A stretch of DNA of 64,000 nucleotides, from the NCBI RefSeq assembly GCF_900172325.1, contig NZ_FWFR01000005.1, positions 62,001 to 126,000 on the forward strand, read 5' to 3'. The DNA is from Oceanibacterium hippocampi (GTDB taxonomy: Bacteria > Pseudomonadota > Alphaproteobacteria > Sneathiellales > Sneathiellaceae). Position numbers and translations under genes: made by a program. Every line of letters begins with the position of its first letter. The first letter of the stretch is position 1. The notes below the pieces were generated by a model. The model was given only the letters and a program-made list of their open reading frames with translations. It made no database searches and was not told where the DNA came from. Shown here one piece after another: positions 461 through 29,797 of this stretch.

Positions 461-1001
461 TCCGACTCTTCCCTATCTAGGTTCCGAACGTGGAAGCGGG
501 GAGCCGGCATTTGCCGATGGTCCGGGCACGAGGCGCACACGTGTGTCGTGGCGGGCGCGCGTCGGGCAGGCGAACCCTGACGATCGCTCGTGCCGATACC
601 AGTTTCCCCCTCCGAAAGCACGCTGCACTTTCTTCGTGTGGACAGTTTCTTCTGTGCATCCGATGGCCGAACGAGTTGACAACAATTCGTTCCGTACAGC
701 GGAATTTCGAAGAGGCTATTATGGAACAAAACGCCGGTCAATCCTCGATTCACCGCCTGGTTATCGGCATTCTGCAACCGCTGGTTCCGACGTTTCCGGA
801 GCGCCTCGGGAGCATCCAATTACCGCGCGAGAAAGGTCTGCTCCAAGCCGCTCCGGAAACCCGAAATCGTTGAAACGGGTATGGTTTGGAGCAAACCATT
901 AAGGCGAAAATCGACCCCGATTCTGTAAAAATTCTTTTCATTCCTCCCGGGCCGGTGTCGGGATAGGTCGAAAAACTCAACGGAATCAAACATTACTGAT
1001 A
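461..1001. other. Intergenic region upstream of the PEP-CTERM gene
   Basis: No convincing gene is seen; open frames here have no recognisable domain and poor codon pattern. The stretch is less GC-rich than its surroundings towards 900-1000. It holds a perfect 8-bp-arm dyad at 881-899 and ends at a sigma-54 promoter, so it probably works as an upstream control region for the gene at 1095, and as 5' flank of the divergent E1 gene. Confidence 0.5.
881..899. promoter_or_regulatory. Perfect inverted repeat, candidate activator site (UAS) for the sigma-54 promoter
   Basis: ATGGTTTG-GAG-CAAACCAT is a perfect dyad with 8-bp arms and a 3-bp spacer. Its centre lies about 113 bp upstream of the -24 GG of the sigma-54 promoter, a usual distance for a bacterial enhancer-binding protein. 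The identity of the activator is inferred only; PrsR-type regulators control PEP-CTERM genes in other proteobacteria. Confidence 0.45.
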
Positions 1002-1016
1002 TGGCATTAAACTTGC
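1002..1016 (+). promoter_or_regulatory. Sigma-54 (-24/-12) promoter
   Basis: TGGCAT-N5-TTGC matches the RpoN consensus TGGCAC-N5-TTGC at all but one base, with exact spacing. Transcription would begin near 1028, giving a leader of about 67 nt before the ATG at 1095. Confidence 0.7.
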
Positions 1017-1094
1017 GATATGGCCCTGCACAACCTCTTGATTCGGACCAGATCCGATGCCAAGGCCATAGAAGAAGTGAAAAGGGGTAATGCC

Positions 1095-1697
1095 ATGAAG
1101 AAGGGCATGTTCTTAGCCGGCGCGATCGCGGCCTGCGTCATGTTCGCGGGGGCTGCGCAGGCGACGGTCATCAATCTCGCCACGGGCGGCGATGCGACCA
1201 CGACGTCGTTCTCCAAGGCGGGTATTTCCGGCACGATTTCCGCGCGCAGCGGCGGCAATTCCTATCCGGGCAACAATGCGCTCAACAGCAACGTGATCAA
1301 TCAGGACGCGTTCGGTCTCGGCATCAAGCTGAATAGCAATGATGACCCGGACGTTGACGGGCGGAACACCATCGAGTGGCTGGTCTTCGACTTTGCCTCC
1401 GCCGTCACCCTGAACAGCATCTCGTTCAGCGACGACAACCTTAGCGGCAACTGGGACGTCTGGATTTCCCTGGCCGGTGCGGTCACGAAGGTCGGCAACG
1501 GCTCGACCCAGAATCCCTTCACCTCGGGCCTCGGCGTCCTCGTCGACCGCTTCGTCGTGAAGGCCGACAGCAACAGCGATTCCTGGCGTGTCGGGAGCTT
1601 CGACGCGACCGCGGTGCCGGAACCGGCGACGCTCGGCCTGTTCGGCCTCGGCCTGCTGGGCCTGGGTCTCGCGTCCCGCCGTCGCAAGGTCGCCTGA
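1095..1697 (+). CDS. PEP-CTERM sorting domain protein
   Basis: A 200-residue exported protein. Residues 1-23 form a Sec signal peptide (MKKGMFLAGAIAACVMFAGA, cleavage near AQA). The middle is rich in Ser, Asn, Gly and Asp and looks like a beta-rich surface domain. The C-terminus has the canonical sorting signal: VPEPATLG at 174-181, a hydrophobic Gly/Leu helix, then the basic tail SRRRKVA. Such proteins are processed by exosortase and are linked to exopolysaccharide and floc or biofilm formation; no exosortase is in this window. The ATG at 1095 is chosen over upstream in-frame starts because AAAAGGGG lies just 5' of it and because it begins the signal peptide. Expression is probably RpoN-dependent. 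It is followed by a strong terminator, so it is monocistronic. Confidence 0.9.
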   Translation: MKKGMFLAGAIAACVMFAGAAQATVINLATGGDATTTSFSKAGISGTISARSGGNSYPGNNALNSNVINQDAFGLGIKLNSNDDPDVDGRNTIEWLVFDFASAVTLNSISFSDDNLSGNWDVWISLAGAVTKVGNGSTQNPFTSGLGVLVDRFVVKADSNSDSWRVGSFDATAVPEPATLGLFGLGLLGLGLASRRRKVA

Positions 1698-28972: not shown

Positions 28973-29797
28973 CTAGAAGTGCGGTGCACCGAACACATCC
29001 CGGAAATAAATTTCACCGCTTACATAGGCAACTAGTTTCCCGTTCTGAAAGTCGCTTACTTCGGCATGTGTGAGAGACTTCTTTCCAAGCCAGTAAACAT
29101 GCGCGTCTTGACCAGGATTGATGTCCCGGCCTCGTTGTGGCTCGCCACTCAGGACGGGCTGATCACCGGGACGGCTGAATGCCCCTTTGATCGAGTAGCT
29201 AATTTCTTTTGCCGGCGTGTTGCCGGAGTTTTTGACAGTTACTTCGACCATCGGCACCCGGTTACCGCCGAACGATAGAGTGAGATTTGGCGTTGTCGAC
29301 AAGTACGGTCTCAGTTGCAGTTGCATGTTCTCGCGTGACAGATCAATTGCAGCGAAGGCTGCCGTAGCGCCGCGTTCGGCTTCCTTGGTAGCGTCTCTTG
29401 TGGCACGCAACGTCTGTTTAAGGAGCCAAACAGCCCAAATGCTTACGATGAGAGCAACCACGCCGGATACCGCCATGATCCATTGTGGAATCGTATCGCC
29501 CCAGGGAATGCTGCTCGACCAATCTAGTTCCTCTTCCAACTGATCGGATTCGTCAACGCGGGTTTCGTAATCATGCGGGGCGTCGCGAGCTTCAGCATTC
29601 GGAGTTGGCTCGATGAGCCGGAGAGTTCCTTGGGTTTCAGCAGCCGATTGATCGGGGGAGTGGCGATGGTCTTCCTTTGGGGATGATTCTTGCTGAAGTT
29701 GTAAGTCTGGCGCGGCGACTTGAGGCCATGCTGACATTGGCAACATTAGAACGCCGATTGCCGTGAGCGCCAAGAGTACGGTGCTAGTGTTTACCAC
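28973..29797 (-). CDS. Membrane protein of unknown function in an AT-richer island
   Basis: A 274-residue protein with an N-terminal signal-like helix (TVLLALTAIGVLMLPMSAWP), a low-complexity segment rich in Glu, Ser and Gln (about 30-95), one membrane helix (WIMAVSGVVALIVSIWAVWLL, about 104-124), a short coil (TLRATRDATKEAERGATAA) and a C-terminal beta-rich domain starting RPYLSTTPNLTLSF. This helix-coil-RPY layout is common in uncharacterised proteobacterial proteins. The GTG start follows GGAGGA. Base composition and codon use (ATG-poor, AT-richer codons) differ from the core genes around it, so horizontal acquisition is likely. No function is proposed. Confidence 0.75.
   Translation of the reverse strand: MVNTSTVLLALTAIGVLMLPMSAWPQVAAPDLQLQQESSPKEDHRHSPDQSAAETQGTLRLIEPTPNAEARDAPHDYETRVDESDQLEEELDWSSSIPWGDTIPQWIMAVSGVVALIVSIWAVWLLKQTLRATRDATKEAERGATAAFAAIDLSRENMQLQLRPYLSTTPNLTLSFGGNRVPMVEVTVKNSGNTPAKEISYSIKGAFSRPGDQPVLSGEPQRGRDINPGQDAHVYWLGKKSLTHAEVSDFQNGKLVAYVSGEIYFRDVFGAPHF

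Follow-up and report, generated by a model that had tools for sequence, protein, structure and literature searches.

Upstream of proteobacterial PEP-CTERM genes, Haft et al. (2006) found a motif 1 of 17 nt with TTTACA at its end, which is sometimes repeated, and, after a further 62.8 +/- 10.6 nt (range 32-92), a sigma-54 motif 2; they proposed PrsR as the reader of motif 1 (PMC1569441). An alphaproteobacterial case, Rru_A3095 of Rhodospirillum rubrum, was already present in that work, and the novelty that an earlier sequence-only reading of the present locus had hoped for in a matching site from an alphaproteobacterium had thus been published in 2006 (PMC1569441). For pepA of Aquincola tertiaricarbonis RN12, dependence on RpoN1 was measured and the transcription start was mapped, while the link to PrsK/PrsR was predicted and a plasmid carrying prsK-prsR did not complement (PMC9850573). 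Control by PrsK, PrsR and RpoN is also stated for Zoogloea in the introduction of PMC9012009.

The locus analyzed here lies in a 64-kb stretch of DNA, hereafter the window, and sequence comparison indicates that its promoter is very probably of the PrsK/PrsR-RpoN type and part of the PEP-CTERM/exosortase-A regulon. The features of the locus are as follows.

881 to 899, no strand assigned: perfect dyad ATGGTTTG-GAG-CAAACCAT; single copy in the genome, not a shared operator
924 to 940, forward strand: predicted PrsR box (Haft motif 1) TGTAAAAATTCTTTTCA; imperfect palindrome, 17.2 bits
1001 to 1017, forward strand: sigma-54 promoter ATGGCATTAAACTTGCG; -24 GG at 1003-1004, -12 GC at 1015-1016
1028, forward strand: predicted transcription start, 12 bases past the -12 C, placed by the -24/-12 geometry
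1081 to 1087, forward strand: ribosome-binding site AAAGGGG, assigned by sequence, 7 bases 5' of ATG 1095
1095 to 1697, forward strand: PEP-CTERM protein gene, 200 aa; ATG at 1095, stop at 1697; PF07589 and TIGR02595 above cut-off
1611 to 1685, forward strand: PEP-CTERM sorting segment (VPEPATLGLFGLGLLGLGLASRRRK); the genome's top PEP-CTERM match, 37.6 bits

The product of the gene at 1095-1697 scores 33.7 bits against PF07589 (cut-off 20.7) and 26.8 bits against TIGR02595 (cut-off 16), and has the C-terminal PEP motif, hydrophobic stretch and basic end of a PEP-CTERM protein as well as an N-terminal signal peptide, judged by eye. It falls under every cut-off of the named PEP-CTERM subfamilies (XDP1, PepA, FxDxF and others), and identity with the PepA flocculation protein (NF033554) was rejected (34.4 bits; cut-off 80). 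An in-frame ATG at 1020, which opens the longer frame of the ORF list, is not favored as start codon because transcription is predicted to begin downstream of it, at 1028, from where a 67-nt leader would precede ATG 1095. The left neighbor is divergent and, by the look of its sequence, is presumably an E1-alpha-like thiamine-diphosphate dehydrogenase gene, and the intergenic gap upstream of the PEP-CTERM gene is therefore large, at about 630-650 bp.

Within this gap, positions 1002-1016 read TGGCATTAAACTTGC (TGGCAT-TAAAC-TTGC), an exact match to TGGCAY-N5-TTGC that lies, precisely as the sequence-only reading had claimed, upstream of a real PEP-CTERM gene. The 4.83-Mb genome contains 25 copies of the pattern, compared with nine of a reversed-pattern control, and five of the 25 are directly 5' of one of the genome's 13 PEP-CTERM genes, so that the sigma-54 site is not attributable to chance. 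With a looser matrix, a -24/-12 site is found at 10 of the 13 genes.

The likely operator of this promoter, overlooked in the sequence-only reading, is the predicted box at 924-940. It reads TGTAAA-AATTC-TTTTCA, is centered at about -96 from the predicted transcription start and begins 77 bp 5' of the sigma-54 17-mer, leaving a spacer of 60 nt that falls within the published range (32-92 nt, mean 62.8). TGTAAAAATTCTTTTCA matches the 17-nt motif 1 but is one base off its terminal TTTACA: it is imperfect in having T at position 15, near-invariantly A elsewhere (TTTTCA, not TTTACA), and an exact TTTACA is present on its other strand. When scored with a matrix of the nine sister promoters listed below, from which the window's own box is left out, it reaches 17.2 bits and is the second-best place in the 64-kb window; on a matrix from other alphaproteobacteria (36 of 40 boxes, four outliers left out, from eleven further genomes) it scores 15.7-16.2 bits. 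Box and sigma-54 site together form the only such composite in the window, and 0 of 5000 shuffles reach it with the other-genome matrix. The top single PrsR-box match in the window, TGCCGGAGTTTTTGACA at 29221-29237, lacks a suitably spaced sigma-54 site downstream and is probably a chance occurrence.

All ten sigma-54 PEP-CTERM promoters of the genome have a box of the form TGTMRR-N5-YTKACA at 75-80 bp, start to start, and every composite outscores all of its 200 Markov shuffles when its own box is left out of the matrix. The boxes of the nine sister promoters, with their distances to the sigma-54 17-mer, are these.

Sister promoter box TGTAAAGATTCCCAACA, 77 bp
Sister promoter box TGTAAATTATTGTAACA, 77 bp
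Sister promoter box TGTCGGAATATCTTACA, 76 bp
Sister promoter box TGTCAAGGAATCCGACA, 78 bp
Sister promoter box CGTCATCTTTTCTGACA, 77 bp
Sister promoter box TACCGGAAATTCTGACA, 80 bp
Sister promoter box TCGCGGAATATTTTACA, 78 bp
Sister promoter box TGTAAGTCGTTCTGACA, 75 bp
Sister promoter box CGTCGGATTTCTTGACA, 76 bp

The pair of box and promoter is missing at three of the 13 PEP-CTERM genes (C16:1293187, C9:48667 and C16:1487705; loci L035/L127, L037 and L038), which must be controlled in some other way. The PEP-CTERM gene at L040 (C16, about 1755.6 kb) has two boxes 5' of its sigma-54 site, a weaker one at 80 bp and a perfect one, TGTCAGGATACTTGACA, at 173 bp. Composites of box and sigma-54 site, spaced 75-76 bp, are also present at L095:1489-1580 (C6, about 158.7 kb; 33.8 bits) and L096:1489-1581 (C6, about 395.4 kb; 24.5 bits), where they precede short genes whose small products are secreted or membrane proteins without a PEP-CTERM match; these genes may also belong to the PrsR regulon. 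For one alphaproteobacterium, a concrete, predicted PrsR regulon of ten promoters is now defined, along with a matrix that draws on eleven further genomes.

The trans-acting components of this control are encoded in the same genome. On contig C7, PrsK (670 bits), PrsR (660 bits) and PrsT (668 bits) lie in tandem, all above their NCBIfam cut-offs, and the cluster adjoins an XrtA-system amidotransferase and an exosortase A fused to EpsI, which scores 315.5 bits against TIGR03109 (cut-off 208) and thereby belongs to the XrtA system. One of the ten promoters with box and -24/-12 site (L034) lies within this cluster, and RpoN is encoded on C16. The sequence-only reading had advised a search of the genome for prsK/prsR and exosortase, and all were found, along with PrsT and RpoN; the PrsK/PrsR/RpoN control that it proposed is supported by the presence of all required genes and by the architecture common to the nine sister promoters. 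Four other full-length NtrC-type regulators match TIGR02915 below its cut-off, and PrsR is therefore not the sole possible activator. That one of these four, and not PrsR, activates the promoter is nevertheless very unlikely, as the box is common to ten PEP-CTERM genes of this genome and is found again at PEP-CTERM genes of genomes that were chosen for having PrsR above cut-off.

A different element had been put forward as the enhancer, namely the dyad at 881-899. This is indeed a perfect 8+3+8 palindrome of 19 bp, and its distance, given as about 113 bp upstream, is correct for the dyad center, the end of the dyad being 102 bp from the -24 element. Binding of PrsR, or of another enhancer-binding protein, to ATGGTTTG-N3-CAAACCAT as the enhancer of this promoter would accord with the perfect symmetry, with a center at about -138, a frequent enhancer place at sigma-54 promoters, and with a chance probability of about 0.04 for a dyad of this kind within 160 bp upstream, but the idea is scarcely tenable on several grounds. 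A genome search allowing up to 3 mismatches returned a single exact copy and four sites with 3 mismatches each, and no copy was found in 288 other alphaproteobacterial genomes. It is likewise missing from all nine sister PEP-CTERM promoters, where half sites with 1 mismatch occur only at unrelated distances, never at a like place. The dyad scores -8.1 bits on the PrsR matrix, and the stretch from there to the promoter contains a better site, which the sister promoters have in common. Absence of the dyad elsewhere near PEP-CTERM genes had been named beforehand as the observation that would speak against an enhancer role, and this is what was found, both in its own genome and in the 288 others. 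From the complete promoter/enhancer pair originally described, the sigma-54 promoter is retained, being shared by 10 of 13 PEP-CTERM genes, and the single-copy dyad is dropped as enhancer; it is not needed for the proposed PrsR/RpoN control.

When perfect dyads with arms of at least 8 bp and loops of up to 12 are counted, the 64-kb window contains 37 compared with 24 by Markov expectation, and at least one such dyad would arise with a probability of 0.12 across the 650-bp gap, or of 0.04 across the 160 bp that precede the promoter. The dyad is weakly significant and compatible with chance. It is probably a chance palindrome without function, as the number of window dyads of at least its strength, the 0.12 for the gap and the lack of conservation in this genome and the 288 others would have it, although operators are to be expected in a promoter region such as the one in which it lies. 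A less likely and doubtful explanation is that it serves as an operator through which another regulator, specific to this gene, supplements or modulates control by PrsR; its perfect 8-bp arms, the absence of further such dyads from the intergenic region and a good fold as a single strand (z -3.35) are what would be expected of such an operator, but there is neither a second copy nor a conserved orthologue for comparison, and dyads of this class are frequent enough to arise by chance (0.12 for the gap). The 200-aa protein has no relative among the genome contigs searched, and matches of its own family, at just 31-36%, are without box or promoter, so that orthologue footprinting of the dyad is precluded. 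If the dyad were the operator of a second regulator, single regulon members would be tunable apart from the rest.

The assignment of the box at 924-940 to PrsR draws further support from other genomes. PrsR is above cut-off in 27 of 337 alphaproteobacterial genomes, and among 90 PEP-CTERM loci taken from other PrsR-bearing alphaproteobacteria, 40 have box and promoter upstream of the PEP-CTERM gene at a composite score of at least 25 bits, compared with one in the reversed-sequence control; their box consensus is TGTCRG-N5-TTTACA. The same pair is found near prsR in several beta- and gammaproteobacterial loci. Four alphaproteobacterial genomes with PrsR above cut-off (G037, G075, G155 and G256) have no PEP-CTERM match at E 0.001 and may have another sorting tag or diverged PEP-CTERM ends. 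In the alphaproteobacterial loci (L220-L309), the distances from box to promoter, start to start, are mostly 77-81 bp, with a minority that fall about one helical turn apart, at 58, 66-69, 89-91, 101, 110, 121 and 131, and with one at 43. The 14 composites outside the main peak keep its phase, with a V-test p of about 0.0005 at 10.6 bp that is rough because the best pair per locus was taken, a wide range of distances (40-134) was allowed and some of the genes are paralogues. This pattern suggests that the PrsR box and the sigma-54 promoter are helically phased. No statement on helical phasing was found in the literature consulted, where Haft et al. give the mean and range (PMC1569441). The helical-turn steps in spacing make the looping geometry of PrsR, whose binding site is a predicted one in that literature, directly testable.

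The promoter parts, their common spacing, all of the regulators and the exosortase are seen by sequence, and the mechanism that they suggest has predicted steps of binding, transcription start and processing. The sensor kinase PrsK would phosphorylate PrsR, an NtrC-type enhancer-binding protein, which would bind the 17-bp box at 924-940, loop over about 60 bp and use ATP to open the RNA polymerase-RpoN held at 1001-1017. A transcript from near 1028 would then yield the secreted 200-aa protein, which exosortase A may process at the VPEP segment so that it is displayed together with exopolysaccharide. The sequence to search and mutate is 924-940 instead of 881-899, and the locus is an ordinary, well-formed PrsR/RpoN PEP-CTERM promoter, with a box type and an alphaproteobacterial occurrence that are already known.

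In relation to the described systems, the locus shares with the cis-regulatory region of Haft et al. the 17-bp box with a 3' end resembling TTTACA, the 60-bp spacer, the -24/-12 site, a distance of 77 bp to the start codon, the single-gene unit, the large upstream gap and the prsK-prsR-prsT tandem, but differs from it in a single base of the 3' half of the box that departs from the consensus, an extra, unshared dyad upstream and a tighter spacing in this genome (75-80 start to start). Like Aquincola pepA, it has a PEP-CTERM gene behind a -24/-12 promoter and a predicted enhancer, with prsK/prsR/prsT in the genome, whereas the bacterial class is another, the protein is outside the PepA family (34 bits versus 80) and the transcription start is a predicted one. 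Other PrsR-bearing alphaproteobacteria (e.g., L289, L285 and L250) have TGTCRG-N5-TTTACA where the window has TGTAAA-N5-TTTTCA, and are otherwise like the window in box, promoter and the main spacing of 77-81 bp.
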